Assembly: GCF_021191705.1 (NCBI RefSeq)
Contig: NZ_JAIWPU010000020.1
Location: 1-64,000 of the forward strand
Source: Proluteimonas flavola
GTDB taxonomy: Bacteria > Pseudomonadota > Gammaproteobacteria > Xanthomonadales > Xanthomonadaceae
Reading direction: 5' to 3'
DNA: 64,000 bases
The notes beneath the pieces were generated by a model. That model saw only the letters and a list, made by a program, of their open reading frames with translations. It was not told the DNA's origin and searched no databases. This document shows, piece by piece, positions 48,594-64,000 of the stretch. The translations under genes and the position numbers were made by a program. Within the stretch, counting starts at the first letter, position 1. Each line of letters starts with the position of its first letter.

Positions 48594-51478
48594 CAGAACC
48601 ACCTCCGGATTTCGCCCTGTCCATCGCGACCATCGGTCGCGATGTTCTCCACGCAGCGGCCGCACAACTCCGCGTGCTCGGCATGCGTGCCGACATCGGC
48701 GCGACGCTGCCAGCAACGCACGCACTTGGGTTTGGTCGTCGCGCGGGCGGTCACGCCGATCGCGGTTGCGCTGGTGTCATCCACGATCGTCACGTCACCG
48801 CTGATCAGCAGGAAACGCAGTTCGTCGAAGACCGGCGACAGCCAGTTGGCATCGGACACGCCGCAACGCAACTCGATCTCGGCGTCGAGCGCCGCGCCGA
48901 TCTCGCCGCTGGCGCGCATCGGCTCGAGCACTTTGGACACGCGCTCGCGCAGTTCCAGCACGCGGTCGAAGTCCTGCGGGCCCCAGTCGGCATCGCCGTC
49001 GAGCGTGGACAATCCGGTGTACCAGGTCGCGAACTGCACATTGGCCTCGCGCGCGCCCTTCGCCGGGGCCGGCAGATGGCCCCACAACTCGTCGGCGGTG
49101 AAGCTCAGCACCGGCGCGATCCAGCGCGTGAACGCCTCGGCGATGTGGTACATCGCGGTCTGCGCGCTGCGACGGCCGACCGAATGCTCGGGCATCGTGT
49201 ACAGGCGGTCCTTGGTGACGTCGAGGTACAGCGAACCCAGATCGACGCTGCAGAAGTTCGACAGCGCCTGCACGATCTCGGCGAAGTCGTAGCGCGCGTA
49301 GGCATCTTCGATACGCGCCTGCAGTTGGGCCGCGCGATGCACGATCCAGCGGTCCAGCGCGACCATGTCCTGCGGCGCGACGAGGTCGCGCGCGGGCTCG
49401 AAGCCGGCCAGATTGCCGAGCAGGAAGCGCGCGGTGTTGCGGATGCGGCGATAGGCGTCGGCGGTGCGCTTGAGGATCTCCTGCGACAGCGACATCTCGT
49501 TGCTGTAGTCGGCCGATGCGATCCACAGGCGCAGGATGTCGGCGCCCAGCGTCTTCATGATGTCCTGAGGTTCGATGCCGTTGCCGAGCGACTTCGACAT
49601 CTTGCGGCCGTGCTCATCGACGGTGAAGCCGTGCGTCAGGCACTGCCGGTACGGCGCGGCCTTGTCGATCGCCACGCCGGTCAGCAGCGAGGACTGGAAC
49701 CAGCCGCGATGCTGGTCGGAGCCTTCGAGATACAGGTCGGCCGGCTTCTGGTACCCACGCGCCAGCAGCACGCCTTCGTGGGTCACGCCGGAATCGAACC
49801 AGACGTCGAGGATGTCGGTGATCTTGTCGTAGTGCGCCGCGTCGTCGCCAAGCAGTTCGCTGGCGTCGAGCGTGTACCAGATGTCGACGCCGTGCGCCTC
49901 GACGCGATCGGCGACCAGACGCATCAGCTCGGTGCTGCGCGGGTGCGGCTCGCCGGTCTCGCGATGCACGAACAGCGCGATCGGCACGCCCCAGGTGCGC
50001 TGGCGCGAGATCGTCCAGTCCGGGCGTCCTTCGACCATGCCGGCGATGCGCGCCTGACCCCACTCGGGATACCAGGTGACGTCCTTGATCGCGGCCAGCG
50101 CGTCGTTGCGCAGGTTGGCCTGCGACATCGAAATGAACCACTGCGGCGTCGCGCGGAACGCGATCGGCGTCTTGTGGCGCCAGCAATGCGGATAGCTGTG
50201 CTCGAGCTTCGCGAACGCGAGCAGGCTGCCCTGCGCGCGCAGCGCCTCGACGATGACGTCGTTGGCCTTCCAGATGTGCAGGCCGGCGAGCACGGTGTCG
50301 CCGATCGGCGGCGTCGACGACAGATACACGCCGCGACCATCAACCGGATTGAGCTGGGCCGCGGTGTAGAGCTCGAGCAAGCCATAGGCCTTGCCGACGA
50401 CGTAGTCCTCCTGGCCGTGACCGGGCGCGGTGTGCACGGCGCCGGTACCGTCTTCGGCCGACACGTGGTCGCCGAGGATCACCGGGATGTCGCGCTCGGC
50501 GTAGAACGGATGCGCGAGCACCAGGTGCTCGAGCGCACTGCCGGCCACGCGACCGTGCACGACGACATCGCCTTCGACGCCGTAGCGACGCAGCGCGCGT
50601 TCGGCCAGTGCATCGGCCAGCACCAGCCAGCGACGGCGACCGTCCTGCGCAAGCGGACCTTCCACCAGCGCGTATTCGAGATCGGCGCCCAGCGACACGG
50701 CGAGCGACGCGGGCAGCGTCCACGGCGTGGTAGTCCAGATCGGCAGCGCGACATCGACGTCAGTCGGCAACGTCGCGCCGAACGCGTGCGCGAACGCGGC
50801 GGAGTCGCGCGCGAGGTAGGCGACATCGACCGCCGGCGAGACCTTGTCGGCATATTCGATCTCGGCTTCGGCCAGTGCCGAGCCGCAGTCGAAGCACCAG
50901 TGCACCGGCTTCACGCCGCGGGTCAGATGGCCGTTGTCGACCACCTTGGCCAGCGCGCGCATCTCGTCCGCCTCGAAACGGAAATCGAGCGTGCGATAGG
51001 GGTTGTCCCAGTCGCCGAGCACACCGAGGCGCTTGAAGTCGCGGCGCTGGATGTCGATCTGCTCATTGGCGTATTCGCGGCATTTCTGCCGGAACTCGAC
51101 CGCATCGAGCTTGACGCCGACCTTGCCCCACTTCTTCTCGATCGCGATCTCGATCGGCAGGCCGTGGCAATCCCAGCCCGGGATGTAGGGCGCATCGAAA
51201 CCCGCCATGCCCTTGGACTTGACGATGATGTCCTTGAGGATCTTGTTGACTGCGTGGCCGAGATGGATCGCGCCGTTCGCATACGGCGGACCGTCATGCA
51301 GGACGAACTGCGGGCGTCCGCGCGCGTGCTCGCGCAGCTGCGCGTACAGGCCCTCGTCTTCCCAGCGCGCCAGCATCGCCGGCTCGCGCTTGGGCAGATC
51401 GCCACGCATCGGGAAGTCGGTCGCCGGCAGATGGATCGTCGACTTGTAGGGATTGGAATTGCTGGCGTCTGCGCTCAC
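48593..51478 (-). CDS. ileS: Isoleucyl-tRNA synthetase
   Basis: A 961-residue class I synthetase. The HIGH-type motif is in [13 protein letters not shown] (His72-His75), KMSKS at 626-630 ([11 protein letters not shown]), an editing domain lies between, and the C-terminal zinc site is [12 protein letters not shown] and LCGRCVENI. All are of the bacterial, mupirocin-sensitive type. It overlaps ribF upstream (ATGA) and lspA downstream (TGATG), forming a tight ribF-ileS-lspA unit. Confidence 0.97.
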
Positions 51479-52446
51479 GCGAAGTCCTGTCGTTGCGTTT
51501 CGTGTCGTGGGGAATGCGGTGCAGCGAGGACGGCCCGTGCCTGTGCGGCGTCGAGATCCATCTGCGCGACCAGACTCGGCAGGTCGTCGAACGTTTCCTC
51601 GTCGCGCAGGCGCGCGACGAATTCGACTTCGATGCGGCGGCCATAGAGATCGCCATCGAAATCGAACAGATGCGCTTCGAGCAGCGGTTCGACACCGCCG
51701 ACCGTCGGCCGCGTGCCGAAGCTCGACACCGACGGCCGGGCTGCGTCGCCGATGCCGTGCACGCGCGTGGCGTAGATGCCGCGCAGCGCCGGCACCTTGC
51801 CGCCGAAGCGCAGGTTCGCGGTCGGATAACCCAGCGTGCGACCGAGCTGCTGGCCGCGCACCACGCGACCGGAGACCGCATACGGCCGTCCGAGCAGGCG
51901 CGCGGCGTGTTCGAAATCACCGGCGACCAGCGCGTTGCGGATGTGGGTGCTCGACACGCGTTCGCCGTCGATGACCAGCGGCTCGATCTCACCGGCGATG
52001 AAGCCCGCCTCGCGGCCCAGCGCCTGCAGCGTCGCCAGATCGCCCGCGCGCTTGTGGCCGAAGCGGAAGCCCGGGCCGACCCAGACTTCGCGTGCGCGCA
52101 GGCGCTGCACGAGCACGGCGTCGACGAAGGCCTCGGGCGACATCGCCGCCATGCGCGCATCGAAACGCAGCAGGCCGACGACGTCGGCGCCGAGACCGCG
52201 CAGGCCTTCGAACTTCGCCCGCACCGGCCCGAGTCGCGGCGGCGGCGATGCGGCGGCGAAGAACTCGCGAGGCAACGGCTCGAAACTCAGCGCGGCGGCG
52301 TCGACGCCCAGCACGTGCGCCCGCGCGACCGCGTGCCGCACCAGCGCCTGGTGCCCGAGATGCAGCCCGTCGAACGCGCCGATGCAGACCACGCTGCCGT
52401 CGGCACAGAGGGGCCCGCCGGCGATGTCGCGGAACAGCCTGCTCAT
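51475..52446 (-). CDS. ribF: Bifunctional riboflavin kinase/FAD synthetase
   Basis: A 323-residue RibF that makes FMN and then FAD. The N-terminal adenylyltransferase contains [16 protein letters not shown] and [23 protein letters not shown] (in part); the C-terminal kinase has [22 protein letters not shown] and [17 protein letters not shown] (in part). ATG 52446 gives the standard N terminus. Its stop overlaps the ileS start. The gene upstream, murJ, is on the same strand after a gap of about 110 bases. Confidence 0.95.
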
Positions 52447-52559
52447 GTGGGTCCGTTGCGGCGGGCGTACCAGTGCACGCCCGCGGGAAAAAGTGACCGG
52501 CAAGTATAGCCGCGACCCGGCCTGAGCCGGGCCCGGCGGCCTCGCGCGCGGGGCGGTGC

Positions 52560-54158
52560 TCAGTGCCGCAGGTGCCGCGGCCGCAGGCCCAGCGCGATCA
52601 TCGCCGCCACATAGGTCGCCCCGCCCGCCCCGATCACCAGCACCAGCCAGCCGATGCGGTGGAACGCACCCTGGATATCGGTCCAGGCACCGATCCAGAA
52701 CCGCAGGCCCAGCACCACGACGGCCATCGCCGCGCAGGCGCAGGTCAGGCGCAGCGCGTAGATCGCCCAGCCCGGCTCCGGGGTGAAGATCCCGCGCTGG
52801 CGGAGATACCGCCACAGCAGTACCGCGTTCACCACGCCCGCCAGCGCCGTCGCCAGGGCGATGCCGCCATGCGCGCCGGGCACCTCAAAGAGCCACAGCG
52901 GCGTGGTCAGCGCGATCGTCAGCAGCACGTTCGCGGCGACCGTCCAGATCGCCGCGCGCATCGGCGTCTTCGTGTCCTGGCGCGCGTAGAACGCCGGCGC
53001 CAGCACCTTGCTCAGCATGAAGGCCGGCACGCCGAGGCTCATCGCGGTGAGGCTGATCGCCGCCATGCGCGTGTCGTCGGCGCCGAACGCGCCGTAGTTG
53101 TAGACCGTCGCGGTAATCGGCTCGGCCAGCAGCAACAGGCCCAGGCCCGCCGGCATGCCGGCCAGCAGCGCCATGCGCAGGCCCCAGTCCAGCGACTGGT
53201 TGTAGCCCGTCGCATCTTCGGCCGCGTGCCGGCGCGAGAGATGCGGCAGGATCACCGTGCCCAGCGCCACGCCGAACAAGCCCAGCGGGAACTCGATCAG
53301 GCGGTCGGAGTAGTACAGCCAGTCGACGCTGCCGGCCGCCAACAGCGATGCGAACGCGGTACCGACGATCAGATTGACCTGGGCGACCGACGAGGAGAAC
53401 AGCGTCGGCAGCATCAGCCGGCCGACCTTGCGTACCTCCGGATGCCGAAAGCCGGGACGGAAGCGCGGGCGCAATCCGAGCCGGCCAAGTGCCGGCCAGA
53501 GCAGCGCGAGCTGCAGGAAACCGGCGATCAGCACGCCCCACGCCAGGCCCTCGGGTGGCAGTGCGAAGCGCGGCGCCAGCCACAGCATCGCGGCGATCAT
53601 CGTCAGGTTGTGCAGCACCGGGGTGAATGCGGGCAGCGCGAACTTGCCGTGGCTGTTGAGGATCGACGCCGACAGCGACATCAGCGAGATGAAGAGCAGA
53701 TAGGGGAACGTGATGCGCAGCATCTGCGCGGTCTGGGCCAGCAGTTCCGGCTGGTCCGCCCAGCCCGGCGCGAACAGCCGCGCGACCAGCGGCGCCAGCA
53801 GCATGCCCAGCGCGCAGACCACCAGCACCACCGCGCACAGGGCACCGGCCATCGCGTCGATGAAGGATTTCAGGGCGGCGCGGTCTCCACGCTCCTTGAT
53901 CTCGTTGAGCACCGGCACGAAGGCCATCGCCATCGAGCCTTCGGCGAACACCCGGCGCAGGAAATTCGGGATGCGATAGGCGACAATGAACGCACTCATC
54001 GCGCCGCCGGTGCCGAACAGCGTGGCCTGCAGCATGTCGCGGGCGAAGCCGGCGATCCGCGAAACCAGGGTCATCGCGCTGAACACAGCGCTCGAGCGCA
54101 GCAATCCGCCGCGCCTCTTCGGGGCCGGGCTGGCGGCCGCCGGATCGAGGGCCGTCAC
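52560..54158 (-). CDS. murJ: Lipid II flippase MurJ
   Basis: A 532-residue membrane protein with about 14 helices, flipping lipid II across the inner membrane. Conserved parts: SAMTLVSRIAGFARDML, IPNFLRRVFAEGSMAMAFVP (in part), SSSVAQVNLIVG, DRLIEFPLGLFGVALGTVILP (in part), and LSKVLAPAFYARQDTKTPM. GTG 54158 was taken as start; a TTG at 54194 is also in frame but lies inside the rpsT promoter. The region before the first helix is short and Arg-rich. It is divergent from rpsT, the usual arrangement. Confidence 0.95.
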   Translation of the reverse strand: MTALDPAAASPAPKRRGGLLRSSAVFSAMTLVSRIAGFARDMLQATLFGTGGAMSAFIVAYRIPNFLRRVFAEGSMAMAFVPVLNEIKERGDRAALKSFIDAMAGALCAVVLVVCALGMLLAPLVARLFAPGWADQPELLAQTAQMLRITFPYLLFISLMSLSASILNSHGKFALPAFTPVLHNLTMIAAMLWLAPRFALPPEGLAWGVLIAGFLQLALLWPALGRLGLRPRFRPGFRHPEVRKVGRLMLPTLFSSSVAQVNLIVGTAFASLLAAGSVDWLYYSDRLIEFPLGLFGVALGTVILPHLSRRHAAEDATGYNQSLDWGLRMALLAGMPAGLGLLLLAEPITATVYNYGAFGADDTRMAAISLTAMSLGVPAFMLSKVLAPAFYARQDTKTPMRAAIWTVAANVLLTIALTTPLWLFEVPGAHGGIALATALAGVVNAVLLWRYLRQRGIFTPEPGWAIYALRLTCACAAMAVVVLGLRFWIGAWTDIQGAFHRIGWLVLVIGAGGATYVAAMIALGLRPRHLRH

Positions 54159-54185
54159 CGGGCGGTGCCGTTCAGGCCGGGCTGG

Positions 54186-54214
54186 TTGACGCAAGTAGCT
54201 GAAACACCCATAAT
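54186..54214 (+). promoter_or_regulatory. Promoter of rpsT
   Basis: TTGACG at 54186-54191, a 17-base spacer, and CATAAT at 54209-54214; transcription would start about 60 bases before the S20 ATG. It overlaps the possible TTG start of the divergent murJ. Confidence 0.7.
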
Positions 54215-54282
54215 TTCCTGCTCAAATTTCCATTGGTCCGGCGACGCCGGATTTTCACACGTCCAGCTTCCAGGAATCCATC

Positions 54283-54555
54283 GTGGCAAACATCAAGTCC
54301 GCCAAGAAGCGCGCCAAGCAGACCGTTGTGCGCAACGCGCGCAACTCCGCCCAGCGCTCGCAGCTCCGCACCGCCGTCAAGAAGGTGCTCAAGGCGCTCG
54401 ACGCCAACGACGCCACCGGCGCGCAGGAGGCATTCAATGTCGCCCAGCCGATCCTCGACCGTTTCAGCTCCCGCGGTCTGATCCACAAGAACAAGGCAGC
54501 CCGTCACAAGAGCCGCCTGACCGCACGCATCAAGGCGATCAAGGCCGCTGCCTGA
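54283..54555 (+). CDS. rpsT: 30S ribosomal protein S20
   Basis: A 90-residue S20, with the typical start [20 protein letters not shown] and the end of the protein [19 protein letters not shown]. It binds 16S rRNA. AGGAA lies before the ATG. The gene stands alone between murJ and an integrated island, and has its own promoter and terminator. Confidence 0.97.
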
Positions 54556-54586
54556 TCCCTGCCCGGCCGCTTCGGCGACCGATGCG

Positions 54587-54615
54587 AAAAAACCCGGCCA
54601 TCGGCCGGGTTTTTT
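54587..54615 (+). terminator. Terminator of rpsT
   Basis: A run of A, then aacccggcc, a short loop, and ggccgggttttttg. A standard intrinsic terminator. The island side begins beyond it; the 176 bases before the integrase gene hold no gene and should contain the left attachment site, which I cannot delimit. Confidence 0.9.
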
Positions 54616-54791
54616 GTTTCACGATGACTCCAGCTCGGCACTTCGCTGGACTACGCCAAGGCTCGATACAGCAGGTTTATCAATAGCTTAGGCGAGTCCA
54701 TCCTATGCCGGTGCTTTCCGAAACTTGACCCGGTTTCCCCTCGCGTGGCTCCCATGCGGCTCTTGGAAACTGAGGTTTCTGAGGAGTCGTC

Positions 54792-55994
54792 ATGGCAAAG
54801 ATCAAGCTCACCAAGTCCGCAGTGGATGCGGCGAAGCCCCAGGCGCAGGCCGTCGAACTCCGGGACACCGTGGTGCCCGGCTTCCTGTGCAAGATCACCC
54901 CGGCCGGCCGCAAGGTGTTCATGCTCCAATACCGCACGAACGCCGGCGAGCGCCGCAAGCCCGCCCTGGGCCAGTACGGGGAACTGACCGTCGAGCAGGC
55001 CCGTGTCATGGCGCAGGAGTGGCTGGCCGAGGTTCGCCGGGGCGGCGACCCGAGCGCGGCCAAGAATGCCGCCCGCAAGGCGCCAACCATGAAGGAGTAT
55101 TGCCACACCTTCATGGAGGACTACTCCAAGCAGCGCAACAAGCCCAGCACGCAGCGCGGCTATCAGGGTGTCATCGACCGCAACATCATCCCCATCCTGG
55201 GCCGGATGAAGGTGCAGGACGTGAAGCGCCCGGACGTGGCCGCGCTGATGAAGAAACTGGCCCACAAGCCGGCCGAGGCCAACCGCACCTTCGGCGTGCT
55301 GCGCAAGATGTTCAACCTGGCCGAGGTGTGGGGGCTGCGCCCGGACGGCACCAATCCGTGCCGTCACGTCCCGATGTTTCCGCCCGGCAAGGAAACCCGG
55401 CTCATCGTGGACGATGAACTGGTGCGGATCTTCCGCCAGTTGGAGCACTTGGAGGCGGAAGGATTGGAGAACTACGTCATCCCGCTGGCGATCCGTCTGC
55501 AATTCGAGTTTGCCGCCCGCCGTTCCGAAATCTGCCCGCTCGAATGGGACTGGGTTGATCTGGAGAAGCGCCGCGTCGTCTGGCCCGACAGCAAGACCGG
55601 CGGTATCTCCAAGCCCATGAGCGAGGAAGCCTATCGGCTGCTTTCGACGGCGCCGCGCCTGGAAGGCTGCCTCTATGTCCTGCCGTCCCCCAACGACCCG
55701 GCCAAACACATGACCCACGGCGAACACTATGGCGGCTGGAAGCGCGTGCTCAAGGCCGCTGGTGTGCCGCACGTCGGCACGCACGGCATCCGCCACCGCG
55801 CAACGACCGACATTGCCAATTCGGGCGTGCCGACCAAGGTGGGCATGAAACTGACGGGCCACAAGACCGTGGCGATGTTCATGCACTACGTTCACACCGA
55901 GGACAAGCCGGTGCGCGAAGCGGCCGAACTGGTGGCGAGCCGTCGGCTGGCGATCACTGGTGCCAAGCGGCTTCCCGTGGAAGCGACGGCATGA
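54792..55994 (+). CDS. P4-type tyrosine integrase
   Basis: A 400-residue site-specific recombinase of the P4/CP4-57 family. It opens with the DUF4102 arm-binding domain (KLTKSAVDAAKPQAQAVELRD and GQYGELTVEQARVMA, in part). A SAM-like core-binding domain follows, then the catalytic domain. The residues are complete: Arg in FEFAARRSEICPLEW, His-x-x-Arg in THGIRHRA, His in LTGHKTVAMF and the nucleophile in MHYVHTED. GAGGAG at 54781 fixes the start. It is the first island gene, and should mediate excision and integration near the 3' side of rpsT. GC is lower than in the core genes. Confidence 0.95.
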   Translation: MAKIKLTKSAVDAAKPQAQAVELRDTVVPGFLCKITPAGRKVFMLQYRTNAGERRKPALGQYGELTVEQARVMAQEWLAEVRRGGDPSAAKNAARKAPTMKEYCHTFMEDYSKQRNKPSTQRGYQGVIDRNIIPILGRMKVQDVKRPDVAALMKKLAHKPAEANRTFGVLRKMFNLAEVWGLRPDGTNPCRHVPMFPPGKETRLIVDDELVRIFRQLEHLEAEGLENYVIPLAIRLQFEFAARRSEICPLEWDWVDLEKRRVVWPDSKTGGISKPMSEEAYRLLSTAPRLEGCLYVLPSPNDPAKHMTHGEHYGGWKRVLKAAGVPHVGTHGIRHRATTDIANSGVPTKVGMKLTGHKTVAMFMHYVHTEDKPVREAAELVASRRLAITGAKRLPVEATA

Positions 55995-56022
55995 ACGACG
56001 GCTACCGTCCCGCCTTTCCTGC

Positions 56023-56055
56023 CCCGATTGTCGTGTCGTTGTCACGACAATCGGG
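56023..56055. repeat. Perfect 13-base inverted repeat after the integrase
   Basis: cccgattgtcgtg at 56023-56035 and its complement at 56043-56055, with a seven-base loop. No T run follows. It may end integrase transcripts or insulate the toxin-antitoxin promoter just beyond. Confidence 0.6.
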
Positions 56056-56092
56056 CGGGCCGCCTCTTGCGGGGTGGCTTCACGGCGACGCA

Positions 56093-56121
56093 TTGAAAAG
56101 TGTACCCGTTTCGGGTATAGT
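56093..56121 (+). promoter_or_regulatory. Promoter with overlapping operator of the toxin-antitoxin pair
   Basis: TTGAAA at 56093-56098, a spacer of exactly 17 bases and TATAGT at 56116-56121. Within the spacer is a perfect palindrome TACCCG-TTT-CGGGTA at 56103-56117 that also covers the start of the -10. This is the likely binding site of the XRE antitoxin encoded second, giving autoregulation. Confidence 0.75.
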
Positions 56122-56133
56122 TTGGGGGTCGAG

Positions 56134-56517
56134 ATGACTTGCATCCTCAAGCGGAAGGACTTTGCTCGGTGGCAGGCGAGCGAGAAGCTGTCCGATGCCG
56201 CCTTGTGCAAGGCGGTCAAGGAGATGGAAAGCGGTCTGATCGACGCGGACTTGGGCGGCTTTCTCTACAAGAAGCGGGTGGCCCGCGTCGGTAGTGGCAA
56301 GAGCGGCGGCTACCGCACGCTGGTATCGGCCAGGATCGGCAGCCGCTACGTGTTCCTGCATGGGTTCCCGAAGAACGACAAGGCGAACATCACGCAGGAC
56401 GAGAAGAAGGCGCTGCAATTCGCCGGTAAGGCGTTCTTGCAACTGTCCGGGGAAGCGTTGTCGAAGGCGTTGCAGTCGGGCGTGTTATTGGAGGTGCATT
56501 GTGAGCAAGATCATTGA
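56134..56517 (+). CDS. RelE/ParE-superfamily toxin (PF06296 type)
   Basis: A 127-residue protein of the type II toxin family formerly DUF1044. Diagnostic segments are LCKAVKEMESGLIDADLGGFLYKKRVA (in part), GKSGGYRTLVSARIGSRYVFLHGFPKND (in part) and a late tail with GEALSKALQSG. Such proteins act in the cytoplasm as mRNA interferases or related poisons; the exact target is unknown. The toxin gene comes first, before the antitoxin, as in higBA-like pairs, and overlaps the antitoxin by 17 bases. The start follows a GGGGG stretch. Confidence 0.87.
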   Translation: MTCILKRKDFARWQASEKLSDAALCKAVKEMESGLIDADLGGFLYKKRVARVGSGKSGGYRTLVSARIGSRYVFLHGFPKNDKANITQDEKKALQFAGKAFLQLSGEALSKALQSGVLLEVHCEQDH

Positions 56518-56803
56518 ATCCCTGCGTGACGACCTGGCAGCGCTCCATGAAGTGGGCGCGATCAGCAAGGTAACGATGCGCGAGTTCGACGCGATATGCC
56601 CGCCGCCGGTACGGGAGTTCGGCGCCGAGGACATCAGGCGCCTACGGGAGAAACTGAAATTCAGCCAGCCGGTGTTCGCGCATCACCTGCACACCTCGGC
56701 GTCGACTGTGCGCAAGTGGGAGCAAGGCGAAACCCGGCCTGCTGGTCCGGCGCTCAAGTTGCTCAACGTCATCGCCGACAAGGGTTTGCAGGCCATCATT
56801 TGA
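56501..56803 (+). CDS. XRE-family antitoxin
   Basis: A 100-residue DNA-binding protein paired with the upstream toxin. The helix-turn-helix is in the C-terminal half: LREKLKFSQPVFAHHLHTSASTVRKWEQGETRP (in part) with the xre hallmark VRKWEQG. The N-terminal part (LRDDLAALHEVGAISKVTMREFD, in part) likely wraps the toxin. The GTG start at 56501 is preceded by GGAGG and lies inside the toxin gene. It should repress the promoter at 56093. Confidence 0.88.
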   Translation: MSKIIESLRDDLAALHEVGAISKVTMREFDAICPPPVREFGAEDIRRLREKLKFSQPVFAHHLHTSASTVRKWEQGETRPAGPALKLLNVIADKGLQAII

Positions 56804-56827
56804 TGCTTGGCACGATGGAGACAGGCG

Positions 56828-57646
56828 GTGGCGACACGGATTGACCCTTTCAGTTCACAGCACCTTGAAGCAGCCTGTCGTGTCCTAGCCGATACCGAGC
56901 GCGGCCTGAGCGGCACGCAGATTGAGCGATTGCTGCAAGAAATCGAGGTTGCCGACACGTCGCCCGGCACGACCAAGTGGAAGCGATTGTTCAATGCACT
57001 GGCCGGGGTACAGAACCAGCATCAGGTCGGCAACCATCTCATCCTGTTCATCAATCGCGCGATGAACCCGGTGAACTACGCCCGTGACCCTGGGACGTTC
57101 GCCTGGCGGCGCGACGAACTCAATGTCGTCCTGGCCTTCTCAGGCTTCTACGTGCGCGAGGATGGCAAGGTCGGACATGCCGACAAGGCAGCGACACTCG
57201 ACGCCGCCCGCGCGCGTGCTGGGCGACTCAAGGCGGCGCTGGAAAGCCGTACCGTGCATGCGGAAGTCCTGAACTACTGCCGCGCCGAGCTGCTGGACGA
57301 AAATTATTTCCATGCCGTCTTCGAGGCGACGAAGGGTGTTGCGGAGCGGATTCGCCTGCTGACGGGCCTGAACGGTGACGGCGCTGATCTGGTGACCAAG
57401 GCATTTGCAGGCCAACAGCCCGTCCTGGCCTTGGGGCCGCTCACAACCGAATCCGAAAAGAGCGAACAAAAAGGTTTTGCCAACTTGCTGATTGGCCTAT
57501 TCGGGGCCGTGCGCAATCCGCTGGCCCACGCACCCAAGACGAATTGGCCCATGTCCGAGCAAGATGCACTGGACATCCTGACGCTGGTATCGCTGATTCA
57601 TCGCAAGCTGGATGGCACCGTGAAAGTAGCTTCGGCATCGCCATAA
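56828..57646 (+). CDS. TIGR02391-like (Hypoth_Ymh) protein
   Basis: A 272-residue cytoplasmic protein. The C-terminal 120 residues resemble the TIGR02391 family, seen as NYFHAVFEATKGVAERIR, LVTKAFAGQQPVLALGPL, and GFANLLIGLFGAVRNPLAHAP; this histidine-containing end is typical of the family, often found in mobile and defence regions. The N-terminal half (RVLADTERGLSGTQIERLL) looks helical. The GTG start at 56828 follows the antitoxin gene by 24 bases, so the genes are probably cotranscribed. The molecular function is unknown. Confidence 0.75.
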   Translation: MATRIDPFSSQHLEAACRVLADTERGLSGTQIERLLQEIEVADTSPGTTKWKRLFNALAGVQNQHQVGNHLILFINRAMNPVNYARDPGTFAWRRDELNVVLAFSGFYVREDGKVGHADKAATLDAARARAGRLKAALESRTVHAEVLNYCRAELLDENYFHAVFEATKGVAERIRLLTGLNGDGADLVTKAFAGQQPVLALGPLTTESEKSEQKGFANLLIGLFGAVRNPLAHAPKTNWPMSEQDALDILTLVSLIHRKLDGTVKVASASP

Positions 57647-57659
57647 AGGAAAAGCAAGA

Positions 57660-58943
57660 ATGGACGAGGCGATCGTTGTCTTCTCCCGGAAAGGGATTTT
57701 CCAGACCGCGATCGCCGCGCGCGACGTTCGCAGCCGGGAGCACGCACGCAAGTTGTGGCCCTTGGTGTCCTCTAGTGCATCACGGCAGATGGTGACATGG
57801 GTTAGCCCATCCTTTGAAAATGGGAAGCTGCGTCGGCGATCCCATTTCCGGATACTTCCTGCCCAGCACACCTATAGCCCCAAAGCGCACTTCGATGATG
57901 AAGAAGCCAGTCGGTGGCGCACCGTGCAGGAAAGCGCCGAACATCGACGAGCAAAGGAACTTGTCGCGGCTGAACTAGCCCGACGCTTGAACGCCGGACT
58001 TGCAATGCCCTGGGCGTTCAAGGACGCGGATGCGTCTGACTATCCGCTGGAAGGCAACTTGCTGCTTGGCGCCGATCGGGTGGCGATCGAGCACCTGCTG
58101 GAGACACCTTTCGGCAGCCAATTCCGACTCGACGTTGCCGTGCTCGGGCCGCCTGTCCAGACCGAGCCGATGGTGCTGGGGGGCGTCGAAATCGAACTCG
58201 GGCACGCCTTCGATGGGCGCAAGGCGCTAATCGGAAAATCGCTCGGATTCCCCCTCATCTCCATCGACATCACCGAGATGACGCTGGCAGAACTCACACC
58301 GGAATGGGCGCAGAAGGTGCTGACCGCCACCACGCGGAGTCATGAGCAAGGGCGCCGGCAGACGTACATCTACCTGCATGATCTCCTGTACCCCCTCTAC
58401 GCGCAGCTACCGGTATTTCTCGACGACGAACAACGCCACCAGTTCCTTGTGTTTGCGGACGACAACACCCTAAACAAGCTGGTGCGCTGGATGAACGCTC
58501 TGGCCGAAAAGCTGGAGTACCCGAAGGGTACGGTCGCCGTTGCCCTGGTCAATGGCAAGAACGAACAGTCGCGCAAGATGCTAGAACGCGCTGGACAGGT
58601 GCTTGGTCCCGACTGGGCTGAATTCAACGACCAGCGATGCCTGCGTCTGACCCTTCCGCGACCCAAAGGTCCGGCTGATCTCCAGGCTCATCGCTTCCAC
58701 ATGACGATGGCGCGCGTTCTGCTGTCGCACACCGATGCGCTCGTTGGCTACAAGTATTGCAACGGCGTGGACAACAACCACCCCGAAGAAGACGTGTGGG
58801 TTGCGCATCGCTGGATCGCCGACCTGAAAACGCATACCCAGCACCGCGTATTGCCAAAGCGACTGGCCGAACCGATCAACAGGTTGATCGCGGTGGTTTC
58901 GGACCTGCATCGCAATCACGTGGCAACCAGCCAAGAGGCGTGA
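57660..58943 (+). CDS. Putative CoiA-like PD-(D/E)XK nuclease
   Basis: A 427-residue protein of no family I can name with certainty. The region from about residue 90 to 200 looks like a restriction-type fold as in CoiA-like proteins: an N-terminal helix SAEHRRAKELVAAELA, then FRLDVAVLG with Asp158, GGVEIELGHAF with Glu177 and Glu179, and a following strand GFPLISIDI. The usual lysine is replaced by Glu in the ExE motif, so activity is open. The last 200 residues are unassigned. It starts 13 bases after the preceding gene and is followed by another nuclease-like gene after seven bases. Confidence 0.65.
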   Translation: MDEAIVVFSRKGIFQTAIAARDVRSREHARKLWPLVSSSASRQMVTWVSPSFENGKLRRRSHFRILPAQHTYSPKAHFDDEEASRWRTVQESAEHRRAKELVAAELARRLNAGLAMPWAFKDADASDYPLEGNLLLGADRVAIEHLLETPFGSQFRLDVAVLGPPVQTEPMVLGGVEIELGHAFDGRKALIGKSLGFPLISIDITEMTLAELTPEWAQKVLTATTRSHEQGRRQTYIYLHDLLYPLYAQLPVFLDDEQRHQFLVFADDNTLNKLVRWMNALAEKLEYPKGTVAVALVNGKNEQSRKMLERAGQVLGPDWAEFNDQRCLRLTLPRPKGPADLQAHRFHMTMARVLLSHTDALVGYKYCNGVDNNHPEEDVWVAHRWIADLKTHTQHRVLPKRLAEPINRLIAVVSDLHRNHVATSQEA

Positions 58944-58950
58944 CCATCCC

Positions 58951-59661
58951 ATGCCGGAAATCATCCTGCGGGCAGACATTCCAGTGGAGCTAAGGGCCAG
59001 GCTAGCCGAGTTGGATATCGACGTCCCTCTACGCTCAGACGGCCGCCGCAAGCATCATGCAGAGCGCTATTGCATCGCGCATCTGCTTGCGACACTGCCG
59101 GTCGAACAGTTCTCGTTCCCGCTGACTCTGACCCATTCGGACAAGCCGGATTTCCTCTTGGCAATGCCTGGCGCTGACGTGGGGATCGAGCACACCGAAG
59201 CCGTACCGGAGAACATCGCCCACGCGGATTTTCTTCGCGAAAAGGAAGGATTGGGGCCGGATGTCTACTTCACTCCCCATGTTAAACTAGGGGAGCCCAA
59301 GAAAACGGCCGACGAACTCCGTCGCGAGATCGAGGCCGATGAGTCCGGCTCTGGCTGGTGTGGCGATTCACCAGAGCGTGAATGGGCTGCAGCGATAGCG
59401 CACTGTGTCAAGGAGAAGATGCCGAAGGCAACAGCAGACGGCTTCGTTCGATATCCAGTCAACTGGCTGATCGTCTATGACAACTGGCCGCTGCCAGCGA
59501 TCGACTACGCCAAAGCGGCTTCGTACCTCGCGCCGCTTCTGGCGGACATGGATGCCTTTTCGGTATTCGACACGATCTTTGTCCATGACGATTCGCATAT
59601 GTGCGAGTTTCGTGATGCTCCAGTCATCCAGATGTTGCGACCGCTACAGGCGCCGCAGTAG
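58951..59661 (+). CDS. Unknown protein with a possible PD-(D/E)XK core
   Basis: A 236-residue cytoplasmic protein. Around residues 38-84 are an ER pair (HHAERYCIAHLLATL), KPDFLLAMPG with Asp67, and DVGIEHTEAV with Glu80 and Glu83, an order that fits the PD-(D/E)XK nuclease core, with histidine or threonine in place of lysine. The rest is mixed helix and strand with many acidic residues. Its final 38 bases overlap, tail to tail, the 3' end of the zinc-hook ATPase gene on the other strand. It is the last gene of the toxin-antitoxin-led operon. Confidence 0.6.
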   Translation: MPEIILRADIPVELRARLAELDIDVPLRSDGRRKHHAERYCIAHLLATLPVEQFSFPLTLTHSDKPDFLLAMPGADVGIEHTEAVPENIAHADFLREKEGLGPDVYFTPHVKLGEPKKTADELRREIEADESGSGWCGDSPEREWAAAIAHCVKEKMPKATADGFVRYPVNWLIVYDNWPLPAIDYAKAASYLAPLLADMDAFSVFDTIFVHDDSHMCEFRDAPVIQMLRPLQAPQ

Positions 59662-62272
59662 CAGTCGGTCCTGCTTTGCGCTTCTTGGCCGTCTCCACGC
59701 TGCGTTTGTCGATCTGCGCGCGCCATGTCTCCAGCGCCGTAATGTCGGCAAGCAGTTCATCCGGATCGGGGACTGCAACGCCGCCCAGAAGTGCCTTGTC
59801 GTGTGCGTAGTTCGAGCACTTCGTCATGCCGGCATTGACCTGGGCATAGTCCTCATCATCGACCACAACCCCGGCGAGTCGCTGGGTTTCCACGCCCTTG
59901 CGGAAACGAAGGATGACCTCGCGCAGCAGGACTTCTTCAACCGCGCGTTCCCATGCCATGCGCAATCGGAAATAGGCGTCGATGGTTTGCCGACGATGCT
60001 CCTGATCCTCGCCATCCTTGTGCAACTTGGCGATGGATTGCTGTTGAGCCTTTAGTGCGCCGATCCGCTTGCTCGCATTCTTTCCTTCAAACGGCAGCTC
60101 TGGATCGGCGACCCCGAATCCCTCGGCGCGGCGAACCAGGCTTTGGGTAGAAATTGCCACACCGGCCGATTTCGCTTCTTCCACCAGGAGGCACAGAAAG
60201 TAGATGTCATGAGTGAACACGACGACCTGGCGGTGCGCGGCTTCGGTGGCCAGGCGCCTTGCCACACGCTCTCGCCTGCGATGATCGAGCGAAGACACGG
60301 GATCATCGAACACGATGCCGCCCTTGCCCCCGCTCAATCCGACTTCGGCCAAAAAGGAACCGATCGCCACGGCGCGCTGTTCACCTTCGCTCAGGATGTC
60401 GCCGGGACTACGGCTTTGCGGCAGTTCCAATTTCAGTTTGTGCAAAGCCTTGCCCCTGTCGGCGCGACTCTGGAGCGAAACGCTCAACGTACCGACACTC
60501 AACGCCTTGAATTCGCGATTGAGCGCTTCAGCTAGTTCCTTGGACACAACCTTCTCGGCCATGTCCGATGCTTTCAGCGAGATGGCATTCGTCTTGACGG
60601 CGGATAGGCACTGCGCGAGTTTCGCCTGATGGCTGAGCTTGCTGACAGCCGTAACCACGGCGTCCCTGACTTGGCACAGTCTGACCCGCGCATCGAGTTC
60701 CGTGAACTGCTTCTGGAGCGCGGCGCGGGCCTTCTCGTCCGATGCCTTCTCCAAGGTTTCGGCCTCGGCGTTCAATTTGTCAGCCAGCGCTTGAAGTCGC
60801 GCCGCCGGGTTCACCAAGGCTTGAGCAACGCTCTCCCATTGGTGTGAGAGCACCGCCGCTTTGATGGCTTCCTGGCGAGTCGTCAGCAGCGTCTCGAACG
60901 CCTTGGTGTCGGCGGCCAGTTGCGGATCTAGGGTTTCAATCTCGCCGTGGGTCACATCGTCGATATTCAACGCCAGACTCTGCGCGATGAATGGCTTGTA
61001 TTCTGCGTACAGGGCGGTACGACGTGCCTGTGAGGTTTTTTCGGCCTCTTGCTGGATGAAGGCCTCGAAACGCAGCAAGCGAGCGGCGCCTTCTGCTAAA
61101 GGTTGCTGGCATAGCGGGCAAGGCGTATCTGAGCCCAGGTCGGGGAACGCCTTATCCGGGTGAGATTCGACGGCGAACTTGCGCGAGGCTTCGAACAATT
61201 CGCGCCAGACTTCTCCCCCGGTGCCCGGCAGCAGGTTCTCACTCTCCTTGAACTCCTTGGCTGCGAGCGCGGCAGCCGCCTGTGCGGTGCGATAACTGTC
61301 CGCCAAGCTACGGAGCTTGGCGACGACGGATTGGTCCACCAGCGCGCCTTTGCCAGTGGTATTTGTCGCTATGGCCGCGACGCGGCGGGCCCGCAAGCGC
61401 AATTGAGCTGCCTTCTCCTTCGGGTTGTTCTCCTTCAGGCTCTTGTCCAGCGCCACATGCTGAGCCAATTCTTCCGGCGCCAGGGTGGCCAGCGCGTCAA
61501 TCTGAGCTTGGGTTGTCTTCGCGGATAGTGATGCGATCAGCTTGCCGACCGCTGTGTCGCCTTGCAGCGGCGCAAACGCGGAGAGGTCAGCGGCGGATTG
61601 CGCATGTTCTGCATCAATCGCGGTCTTCAACTGTTTGCAAATTTTCGCCAGTGCCTCGAAGACATCAAGCCCATAAGGCACGTAGGAGAAATCATCCTCG
61701 CTGTCCAGGTAGGCCCGCGCGCATCGTGAGTCGAAGATTGCGAACGATGACAACTCGGGAGGCGCCGCCTTGCCGTGTGTCCATTGCACATCCTTTGCAA
61801 CACCGTCAACAGTAATTTCAAAGGCTGCTTCAGGAGCGCCCGCCTTGCCAGCGGGAAGATGGGCATTCGGATGAATTGCTTCGGTTTGGTCGCGGGCGCG
61901 ACAGGCGCGCTTGAGTACCCGCGAGTAGCCCGACTTACCCGAACCGTTGTCGCCGTAGATGACGGTCATTCCGGTGGCACTGAATGACAAGTGCTGATTT
62001 TCTGCAATCGCATTGACGTGCCGCATATTCTTCATTGCGAGCAGTTCTATGTGCGTTGTCACCTTGACCGGCGCCGGAATCTGGTCGGCCGTGAGCGGTT
62101 TGGGTTTACGGCCTTTCGGATCGGGGATGCCATGTGCCAACTTGAGCAACGCGAACAGATCGTCTTGGTCATCCGCCGTCAATGTCTGTTTGGCCAGCAG
62201 GCGCGCGACTGCATCGCTTTGCCATGCGGGCAACCCCTGAGTCCAAACCAGTATTTCTTGCAGTATCGACAT
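59624..62272 (-). CDS. SbcC/RloC-like AAA ATPase with zinc hook (AAA_13 type)
   Basis: An 882-residue SMC-like ATPase. Walker A is GDNGSGKS at 107-114. A central coiled-coil region has a CPLCQQP zinc hook at Cys385 and Cys388. The ABC signature is LSEGEQRAVAIGSF near 627, with Walker B and D-loop GGIVFDDPVSSLDH just after and a switch histidine in VVFTHDIYF. The C-terminal 200 residues (AYFRLRMAWERAVEEVLLRE, then KCSNYAHD) are helical and may be an effector, as in RloC, but the RloC nuclease motif is not recognised. Relatives are phage-defence or DNA-end sensors. It is convergent with the operon at 56134-59661. Confidence 0.85.
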   Translation of the reverse strand: MSILQEILVWTQGLPAWQSDAVARLLAKQTLTADDQDDLFALLKLAHGIPDPKGRKPKPLTADQIPAPVKVTTHIELLAMKNMRHVNAIAENQHLSFSATGMTVIYGDNGSGKSGYSRVLKRACRARDQTEAIHPNAHLPAGKAGAPEAAFEITVDGVAKDVQWTHGKAAPPELSSFAIFDSRCARAYLDSEDDFSYVPYGLDVFEALAKICKQLKTAIDAEHAQSAADLSAFAPLQGDTAVGKLIASLSAKTTQAQIDALATLAPEELAQHVALDKSLKENNPKEKAAQLRLRARRVAAIATNTTGKGALVDQSVVAKLRSLADSYRTAQAAAALAAKEFKESENLLPGTGGEVWRELFEASRKFAVESHPDKAFPDLGSDTPCPLCQQPLAEGAARLLRFEAFIQQEAEKTSQARRTALYAEYKPFIAQSLALNIDDVTHGEIETLDPQLAADTKAFETLLTTRQEAIKAAVLSHQWESVAQALVNPAARLQALADKLNAEAETLEKASDEKARAALQKQFTELDARVRLCQVRDAVVTAVSKLSHQAKLAQCLSAVKTNAISLKASDMAEKVVSKELAEALNREFKALSVGTLSVSLQSRADRGKALHKLKLELPQSRSPGDILSEGEQRAVAIGSFLAEVGLSGGKGGIVFDDPVSSLDHRRRERVARRLATEAAHRQVVVFTHDIYFLCLLVEEAKSAGVAISTQSLVRRAEGFGVADPELPFEGKNASKRIGALKAQQQSIAKLHKDGEDQEHRRQTIDAYFRLRMAWERAVEEVLLREVILRFRKGVETQRLAGVVVDDEDYAQVNAGMTKCSNYAHDKALLGGVAVPDPDELLADITALETWRAQIDKRSVETAKKRKAGPTATAAPVAVATSG

Positions 62273-62630
62273 AGCCCCCTCCAGTCCTTATTGCAAGTTT
62301 TACCCCAAATGGATGCATTGTGCGTCCCGGCGTTCTGCCGTCGGGTTCGCGGGCTGCGCCCCGCGCCTCGTGCCGAGTCGCGTCCATCCGGCTTTGACCC
62401 CTGACGCCTTCGGCCCTGACGGGCCTGCGCGCTCCGCTTGCGAAAGGCGGGGTTGTTGGGCGGGTGTGGGCGGTCTTGCTGTTCCTTTCACCGTACCACG
62501 GCGTTCTCGCCGTCAAGGGCTGTGCGCCTTTGGCGCTTGTGGCCGCGGCCATCTTCGACCCCTGACTGCTTGCGCTGCGCCGTGAGGCGCCGGTTCCGGG
62601 CAATTCCGCCCGAGCAACCGGAGCACGATC
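62273..62630. other. GC-rich gap before the RadC gene
   Basis: No supported gene. There are several small GC hairpins (gccttcggccctgacgggcc near 62408 and tgcgcctttggcgct near 62521) and repeated acccctgac words at 62397 and 62559. The words fit the long structured leaders often seen before genes on integrative elements. Confidence 0.4.
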
Positions 62631-63137
62631 ATGTCGCAATTTTCCCTCTCTTTCGATACTTCGCTGATGGTGCGCGATGGCCGCGGCCGTTACCGGCCGG
62701 CTGATACCGATCAGATTCTGGAGGCCGCGCGCCAGGTCATCGAACAGAAGATGCAGCGCGGCGAGGCGTTCACTTCGCCGGCGGCGGTCAAGGACTACCT
62801 GCGCGCCAAGCTGGCCGGCTTCGAGCACGAAGTCTTCGCGGTGCTGTTCCTGGATACGCGCCATCGGCTGATCGAGTACCGGGAGATGTTCCGTGGCACG
62901 ATCGACGGCGCATCGGTGTATCCGCGCGAAGTGGTCAAGGAGGCCCTGCGGTGCAATGCGGCGGCGGTGATCGTCAGTCACAACCATCCGAGCGGGAACC
63001 CGGAGCCGAGCGCGGCCGACCGGGTATTGACTGCGCGAATCAAGCAGGCGCTGGGCCTGGTGGACGTGCGCGTACTCGATCACGTCATCGTCGCTGGCGA
63101 CACCACAGCATCATTCGCCGAGCGTGGCCTGCTTTGA
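62631..63137 (+). CDS. RadC-family JAMM-domain protein
   Basis: A 168-residue protein with the RadC (MPN/JAMM) fold. The zinc motif is complete: the upstream glutamate region HEVFAVLFLDTRHRLIEYREMF (in part), then VIVSHNHPSGNPEPSAAD, the HxHx10D signature. The N-terminal helix-hairpin-helix of long chromosomal RadC is missing, so it is the short form carried on genomic islands and plasmids. Its function is unsettled in the family; anti-restriction or repair roles have been proposed. It is followed by a clear terminator. Confidence 0.9.
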   Translation: MSQFSLSFDTSLMVRDGRGRYRPADTDQILEAARQVIEQKMQRGEAFTSPAAVKDYLRAKLAGFEHEVFAVLFLDTRHRLIEYREMFRGTIDGASVYPREVVKEALRCNAAAVIVSHNHPSGNPEPSAADRVLTARIKQALGLVDVRVLDHVIVAGDTTASFAERGLL

Positions 63138-63139
63138 GC

Positions 63140-63165
63140 GAAGGGGGCTTCGCCCCCCCCTTTTT
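63140..63165 (+). terminator. Terminator of the RadC gene
   Basis: Stem gaagggggc facing gccccccc with a ttc loop, followed by a run of five T. Confidence 0.85.
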
Positions 63166-63258
63166 GCTGCATTCCGACTTGGCGGGTCTGCGCACGCTGC
63201 GTCGCCCCGTGAAGCGGGCGATGCATTATTGGTGAGGTTACCGGAACCAGTGGCGCAA

Positions 63259-64000
63259 TCAGCTGAGCCAAATCGCGCGTTTGGCGCGTTCGATACTTTC
63301 ACTAACGGGAATAGAGCCCGTTTCTGCCCGGGTCATCACGTCGAAGCGCTCCAAGGCTACAAGGACCTTGTCGAATTCAGTCACCAAATCGTTCTTCTGT
63401 GTAATTGACAGCGCGTTCACCCTTGCTTTGACGAATGGCTCAATGTCTTGCATTACTTGGACGGCATGTGAGCGATGACTATCTTCGGCCAGCATAGGAG
63501 CAACTATACGAAGTTTCTCGATGAGCATGTCGTAACGGGTTACAGAAGAAGCTGAGTCTTGCGTTTCACGCACTAATACATAATGCAAAGCCTGGGTGTC
63601 AATTTGATAAGTCTTGAAGCCCGGATTCTTTTCAGCTCGATCGTACGCCGTAATTAAAAATCGTTCCGTGGCATCGAGATCATCCATACTCATCATAAGG
63701 ATCGCATACTGTAGCCAGAATAGAGGCTCTGCATTAACGGCGCTATCGCGATGAAGTCGGTCATAGAGCGCAATCAAAGCCGCATGCCTATTAGGGTCAC
63801 GGCGCAGCGTCCAGTCAAGAGCCGAAAAACGCATCAGGCTACCAAGGATCTTCTGATAACCGCGGCTGCGCTTACGACGAACAGCCTCTACGACTAAACT
63901 ATAAACGGAATCCACGATCCAGCTTGTTTGGAAGTGATTTTGAATTAAATATTCTGAGAATAATGCGGATCTCGCCTGCACGTTGTCATCATCAAACTGA
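63259..64000 (-). CDS. 3' part of an unknown gene running off the window
   Basis: The frame is open from its stop at 63259 to the right edge with no upstream stop, so only the C-terminal 246 residues are seen. They are helical and look like tetratricopeptide-type repeats (EPLFWLQYAILMMSMDDLDATERFLITAYDRAEKNP, in part, then TYQIDTQALHYVLVRE). This resembles the tails of large NTPase or SIR2-like defence proteins, but I cannot name a family. Base composition is clearly lower in GC than the core genome, in keeping with foreign origin. A GTG at 63981 is possible as start but the upstream frame continues. Confidence 0.7.
   Translation of the reverse strand, partial: QFDDDNVQARSALFSEYLIQNHFQTSWIVDSVYSLVVEAVRRKRSRGYQKILGSLMRFSALDWTLRRDPNRHAALIALYDRLHRDSAVNAEPLFWLQYAILMMSMDDLDATERFLITAYDRAEKNPGFKTYQIDTQALHYVLVRETQDSASSVTRYDMLIEKLRIVAPMLAEDSHRSHAVQVMQDIEPFVKARVNALSITQKNDLVTEFDKVLVALERFDVMTRAETGSIPVSESIERAKRAIWLS

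Follow-up and report, generated by a model that had tools for sequence, protein, structure and literature searches.

A CoiA-like D...ExE candidate nuclease encoded beside a PD-lambda-3 component B homologue on an island of Proluteimonas flavola

Closest described systems and layout of the island

The available section of PMC1189080 gives CoiA the active site PD...ExQ and places its conserved arginine where COG4636 has a migrated lysine. A different third residue is found in BamHI, whose active site is described in the accessible part of PMC8845596 as PD94...E111xE113. The defence system PD-lambda-3 of E. coli consists of component A (159 aa, with PD...ExK by eye) followed by component B; in the A at L062:5482-5958, the sequence VFPDVIV...LEFKK looks by eye like a classical PD...ExK site. 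PD-lambda-3 is called an abortive-infection system in the excerpt seen of PMC13190303 and is listed with a PD(D/E)XK domain in that of PMC10952713. According to section 7 of PMC9519451, one of 21 experimentally found defence systems contains a CoiA domain, so that a link of CoiA-like proteins to phage defence is not in itself a new finding. Our literature search on CoiA with defence returned, among the titles listed, no publication on the protein described here.

This protein is encoded on a stretch of 64,000 nucleotides of P. flavola (contig NZ_JAIWPU010000020.1, positions 1 to 64,000), which was analysed as a whole and is called the window. Downstream of a tyrosine integrase, one strand carries in order RelE, HTH, YMH, the gene under study (hereafter the target) and C236. 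The target is thus the fourth gene of the run, and it lies 13 bases after YMH and 7 bases before C236. The features are as follows:

54792..55994, forward strand: tyrosine integrase of the island (Pfam)
56093..56121, forward strand: promoter-like site before RelE (the stretch has 2 such sites, against 1.0 expected by chance)
56134..56517, forward strand: RelE-family toxin (PF06296; Pfam)
56501..56803, forward strand: HTH antitoxin-like regulator, overlapping RelE (Pfam, NCBIfam)
56807..57646, forward strand: YMH, TIGR02391/Hypoth_Ymh, PADLOC PD-Lambda-3_B, with HEPN-type R236-N-x3-H241 (Pfam, NCBIfam, PADLOC)
57660..58943, forward strand: target gene, ATG start, 427 aa; CoiA-like D...ExE protein, candidate PD-(D/E)XK nuclease (ORF list, residues, dN/dS)
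57912..58268, forward strand: candidate nuclease core of the target, residues 85-203, with the ES..H..AK helix, D158, E177-x-E179, H182, D185, R187, K188 and D203 (alignments, crop model, conservation windows)
58422..58766, forward strand: C-terminal region of the target, residues ~255-369, modelled as a ferredoxin-like fold (pLDDT 67-77 at 261-300 and 55-64 at 321-350; Z ~8)
58951..59661, forward strand: C236, 236 aa (ORF list; P66-D67, G78, E80, E83 and A84 invariant)
59624..62272, reverse strand: AAA_13 ATPase, PADLOC candidate PDC-S06 at 2e-221 (Pfam, PADLOC)
62631..63137, forward strand: RadC-like JAB protein (Pfam, NCBIfam)

The site at 56093..56121 is a possible single promoter of the run from RelE to C236. 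The true start of YMH may be the GTG at 56831. A short ORF, which we take to be ribosomal protein S20 by its reading, lies in 54283..54792, and the integrase starts about 240 bases after it. When searching for the ends of the island, we found no direct repeats of at least 16 bases in 54200-64000, no tRNA in 50000-64000 and no Rfam match in 54000-64000.

YMH matches the PADLOC family PD-Lambda-3_B (PDLC03987) at 5e-176 and is 86% identical to component B of E. coli PD-lambda-3. Its residues R236, N237 and H241 are invariant in all six aligned relatives, and RNxxxH is the pattern of HEPN RNases. In addition, the PADLOC family Aga_HEPN matches the C-terminal part of YMH at 3e-13. In C236, the residues P66-D67, G78, E80, E83 and A84 are invariant in five aligned relatives, down to 29% identity, and C236 is a possible further protein of PD-(D/E)XK-like type. 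The AAA_13 ATPase adjoins YMH in L040 and L041, where the target follows further on, and a 30% identical relative stands after YMH in L100 without the target.

We read the target as a CoiA-like D...ExE DNA nuclease of PD-(D/E)XK type in a mobile anti-phage cassette. We give about even chances to this reading, in which the fold, the catalysis with its metal and substrate, the promoter and the role in defence are all predicted.

Occurrence and neighbours of the target gene

Relatives of the target were found in at least 56 loci of the genome collection, a lower bound since the search used six short peptide patterns. They also occur in 17 of 72,556 plasmid records (12 from Acinetobacter, 4 from Pseudomonas and 1 uncultured) and in two near-identical loci of viral contigs. 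With the distant plasmid homologue as query, none was found in viral contigs or in phages. Among the 199 near relatives searched, only the genome of the window itself has the target, and a search of 398 genomes of the phylum turned up, besides the target, a single natural fusion remnant and one chance match. The 13 weak matches besides the target from a search of 369 genomes of the class were set aside; the seven that were inspected were all chance matches. The target is spread by horizontal transfer and does not belong to the gene set of the lineage.

The start of the target and its upstream sequence were present in 51 of the 56 loci (L047, L048, L052, L053 and L057 lacked the 5′ end of the target and were dropped). 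These 51 loci hold only 39 distinct target proteins, so that all locus counts are inflated by near copies. YMH is located directly upstream of the target in 34/51 loci. Before YMH stands the HTH gene in 26 of these 34, component A of PD-lambda-3 in four and neither in four; in three of these last four (L038, L050 and L054), only a C-terminal fragment of YMH is left upstream of the target. In the 17 loci where YMH is not directly upstream, the HTH gene takes this place in four and neither gene does so in 13. C236 follows the target in 12/51 loci. The target cassette thus often, but not always, adjoins YMH. When 31 upstream stretches were compared by eye, the similarity between contexts stopped at or just before the start codon of the target, and the target apparently travels without its own promoter.

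A natural deletion in genome G266 (L068/L095) fuses YMH up to residue 163 in frame to the target from residue 169; the fusion is without the HEPN part and D158, and has one TAG within the YMH match. Disrupted copies of the target, matching in two pieces, occur in L050, L054, L060 and 12 Acinetobacter plasmid records. For the plasmid records, the plasmid table, which is itself incomplete, holds no gene at this place.

In one alternative, YMH would have the target as its dedicated nuclease partner, which would do the job that the small PD...ExK component A has in E. coli. We consider this unlikely, although several observations speak for it. Component A has by eye the site of a nuclease and precedes B, and no copy of it was found in the window (best E 0.78). 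The order HTH, YMH, target is seen in 26/51 loci, and YMH directly precedes the target in 34/51. By eye, part of the YMH end is still present before the target in L028, L030 and L031, which have no YMH directly upstream; YMH was probably lost in these loci. On the other hand, YMH is not directly upstream in 17/51 loci and is a mere C-terminal fragment in three of the 34 others. Moreover, four of the 51 loci (L009, L012, L025 and L049) carry component A (78-80% identical to that of E. coli), YMH and the target one after another, indicating that the target is not a simple substitute for A. No alignment of the two proteins was obtained: BLASTP found no similarity of the target to A, nor to the restriction endonuclease beside E. 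coli PD-lambda-3. The idea that the target replaces A as a rule was dropped, since both the loci with A, YMH and target and the loci without YMH oppose it.

Elsewhere, YMH relatives were found with A in all four enterobacterial records (L061-L063 and L109), whereas the 13 other loci opened (L100-L108 and L110-L113) had no detectable A or target. By blastn in 5426 E. coli genomes, YMH was found in 44 and the target in none. A broader and similarly unlikely idea is that a larger modular system is centred on YMH, with PD-lambda-3 as one of its forms. The arm before YMH would be either the PD...ExK nuclease (A) or the RelE-HTH pair, and the arm after it the CoiA-like D...ExE nuclease (the target, with C236). 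One RNase-like protein would then be wired to interchangeable DNA-cutting partners.

Our preferred reading, in which the target belongs to an anti-phage cassette, also draws on the wider neighbourhood. Ten neighbours in L022, L035, L036, L037 and L044 were picked by eye as likely defence genes, and nine of them belong to known defence families. Beside the target we found GajA and GajB (Gabija) in L022, L035 and L044, AbiEii and SIR2 in L036, and a type IIG enzyme in L037. Among ten less selected neighbours (L009, L010, L020, L023, L024, L031 and L037), two match PADLOC at 1e-15 (E1-E2 and PDC-M68B) and eight do not; this smaller share, and the choice by eye of the first ten, count against the reading.

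The candidate core and its relation to CoiA

The initial annotation had named D158, E177, E179 and the helix S92-A-E-H-R-R-A-K-E-L-V102 in the target. The ORF and all of these residues were confirmed at their positions, and the three acidic residues proved to be conserved. We collected 46 distinct target sequences including that of the window, three of which are too short for 158-187. D158, E177, E179, H182, D185 and R187 are identical in all 43 sequences that cover this part (the window's included), and K188, K193 and D203 are invariant in the 42 sequences that reach them. The same holds for D158, E177 and E179 in an alignment of 36 sequences (the window's and relatives 74-100% identical), made from the 46 after removal of eight copies that are truncated and of the plasmid loci L058 and L059. 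They are also kept in a 45%-identical Pseudomonas aeruginosa plasmid homologue. The D...(D/E)xX residues of the PD-(D/E)XK superfamily are therefore conserved in the relatives of the target.

Over the whole protein, the distant plasmid homologue is 43% identical to the target by column count. The twelve best 25-residue windows of this comparison (72-76% identity) start at 176-187 and the top five at 179-185. The conservation peak thus runs from HAFDGRK to the IDI strand, with E177 and E179 at its edge and D158 outside. The C-terminal part is less conserved than the core (34% versus 55-57% identity to the distant homologue). The dN/dS values of eight orthologues 79-93% identical lie at 0.05-0.10, showing purifying selection (dS is saturated for L044), and the value for the distant homologue is 0.29. 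From the invariance and the conservation peak we infer an active site and no decaying fold.

The third residue of the motif bears on whether this site is catalytic. Faced with Glu instead of Lys, the initial annotation had left the choice between an altered active site and a non-catalytic DNA-binding fold. The Glu is indeed there, but the choice was too narrow because ExE is an established working variant in BamHI, and the altered motif is therefore no argument for a dead protein. A PD-(D/E)XK fold without catalytic activity, used to bind DNA or a protein, would explain why the target has neither the Lys at the usual third position nor the ExQ of CoiA. We regard it as improbable, given that the candidate ligands show no variation and are placed within the best-conserved part or at its edge, and that ExE works in BamHI according to the accessible part of PMC8845596.

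A catalytic PD-(D/E)XK nuclease, our preferred reading, has to be set against another fold in which the CoiA-like helix and the D...ExE pattern meet by chance. The structure models are of low confidence. The target alignment has little depth, with an effective number of 1.7 even when the distant homologue is included, and the models were built without this homologue. The full-length model has a pLDDT of 40.8 and is poor. The crop model of residues 76-232 (pLDDT 52.9, pTM 0.57) shows helices at 77-88 and 93-111 and strands at 142-146, 154-162 and 175-182, followed by a short helix at 192-195, a strand at 200-202 and a helix at 214-222. D158 lies on the second and E177 and E179 on the third strand, so that the earlier placement on the expected strands is borne out only in a low-confidence model; its mean pLDDT is 53, falling to about 45-48 around the ExE strand and to 34 in the following helix. 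At this low confidence, the order of elements fits the alpha-beta-beta-beta-alpha-beta core of PD-(D/E)XK proteins.

When the crop model was compared to known structures, no PD-(D/E)XK protein appeared among the best 50 of 117 Foldseek matches (best E 1.5) or among the VIA-align matches listed (best Z 3.6); both included an actin-capping protein and other unrelated chains. Since the crop model is poor, the missing structural match is no evidence against the fold. The best Foldseek match of the full model (E 0.026) was an unrelated peptidase and was rejected. VIA-align matched the ferredoxin-like part of the full model alone (248-369, Z up to 8.4), to many unrelated chains. According to the VIA-align note, such Z values are common; the ferredoxin-like unit, with Z about 8, is a widespread fold that carries no functional message. 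The C-terminal 200 residues had been described as without assignment and as a possible partner interface. A ferredoxin-like unit is now tentatively modelled at about 255-369, and no sign of an interface was seen in this region, which is less conserved than the core.

Sequence searches gave little. The target has no Pfam, NCBIfam or PADLOC family at E<=1 and, as a single sequence, no PDB match at E<=10; the PDB profile search returned five chance-level rows. The sole PHROGs row (E 0.084) was taken as chance. The CoiA profile PF06054 did not match the target at E<=1, the 45%-identical homologue at E<=10 or any protein of the window's genome at 1e-4.

We compared the target to CoiA through five CoiA_nuc proteins from a search of 200 genomes, in which E...H, D, ExQ, S, R, Y and W are invariant. 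The local hhalign score of the target was 28.2, while the maximum of 200 column-shuffled target profiles was 24.6. In global mode, 16/200 shuffles reached the observed score, and 14/200 did so for the D...ExE half alone without the helix. Judged by these profiles, the similarity to CoiA rests on the one ES..H..AK helix of about 20 residues. The hhalign probability was 5% for whole alignments and 24% and 41% for cropped ones. With relaxed gap costs, D158 stands by eye on the CoiA Asp, E177 on the Glu, E179 on the Gln and R187 on the conserved Arg. A hand count with a loop three residues shorter puts K188 instead of R187 on this Arg, leaving the register uncertain by one. We infer that a positive charge near the site may act in catalysis.

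The target has the E[ST]xxHxxxK helix before the nuclease core, as CoiA does. A joint motif, E[ST]xxHxxxK ... D ... ExQ/E/K, was scanned in 479 non-redundant ORFs. Its strict form hit five, two of the target family and three CoiA (3/5 CoiA controls). The loose form hit seven, adding the CoiA of L073 and the DUF6035 protein of L116 (4/5 controls). In 20000 shuffles of the target it occurred 3 times (strict) and 27 times (loose). As the motif was designed after viewing both families, the scan measures specificity and is no independent test. The PD...ExQ site of CoiA is absent from the target, which has LD158...E177-x-E179 in 43/43 covering sequences while D...ExQ is found in 5/5 aligned CoiA proteins. 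Also absent is the N-terminal Cys pair of CoiA around FAH (C55 and C79 of L070, invariant in the 5-row sample), which has a zinc-binding role; the only cysteines of the target are at 327 and 367.

The likeness to CoiA claimed in the initial annotation is thus supported by the helix, the D...ExX order, the local profile score and the motif scan, but weakened by the low hhalign probabilities, the lack of a Pfam or NCBIfam match and the absence of the cysteines and of ExQ. A fold of another kind is quite improbable. The low model confidence, the lack of a structural match among those listed, and the global and D...ExE comparisons that do not exceed shuffles all leave room for it; the specificity of the joint motif among the 479 ORFs and the target shuffles and the order of elements in the crop model argue against it.

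Proposed function and comparison with known systems

The reading of the target as a nuclease is favoured by residue invariance, the conservation peak, purifying selection, the local profile score, motif specificity, the element order of the low-confidence crop model and the BamHI precedent. Against it stand the lack of a nuclease of this fold among the structural matches listed, although the model is poor, and a similarity to CoiA that depends on one helix. D158, E177 and E179 would bind metal ions in the manner of the D...ExE site of BamHI, and R187/K188, where the following helix begins, could provide the positive charge that Arg contributes in CoiA. The ferredoxin-like C-terminal part may serve in binding or dimerising.

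The defence reading is favoured by the match of YMH to PD-Lambda-3_B, by A and B preceding the target in 4/51 loci, by the defence gene neighbours and by the CoiA domain in a known system. The target would be one gene of a mobile anti-phage cassette on integrative elements, probably transcribed together with YMH, the HEPN-type RNase-like protein, from the RelE-HTH promoter. It may cut invading DNA, or any DNA in abortive infection. Instead of acting in defence, the target could serve to maintain or mobilise the integrative element itself. This would suit its position in the integrase-proximal head of many related islands, but is very improbable because the target also occurs without that integrase, beside unrelated defence genes and on plasmids.

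If our reading is true, a hypothetical protein found on many mobile elements of proteobacteria can be put to the test as a defence nuclease, and the known variants are extended by a CoiA-like core with a BamHI-type ExE site. Component B of PD-lambda-3 would then move between partners, which bears on how an abortive-infection system works.

Compared to known systems, the target shares with CoiA (PF06054; COG4469) the ES..H...K helix before the core, the D followed by ExX and, on the helix that comes next, a basic residue (Arg in CoiA, R187/K188 in the target). It differs in having ExE instead of ExQ, a longer stretch from helix to D, another C-terminal part and no Cys in the first 326 residues. 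The CoiA-like DUF6035 protein of L116 resembles the target in its EGDKHWQMKE helix and PD...FEIQ, but has ExQ, a CxxC, no BLAST similarity and an hhalign probability of 1%. On a Shewanella plasmid, its gene (L116:661-2232) stands two genes before a C236 relative, and an Abi family gene is nearby. With the PD...ExE site of BamHI, as described in the available part of PMC8845596, the target has in common the D followed by E-x-E. BamHI itself is a sequence-specific type II enzyme, and no BamHI entry was among the PDB sequence matches of the target. From PD-lambda-3 (Vassallo et al. 2022, PMC9519451) the window differs in the absence of component A, while the two are alike in the presence of component B, and in four loci A and B both precede the target.
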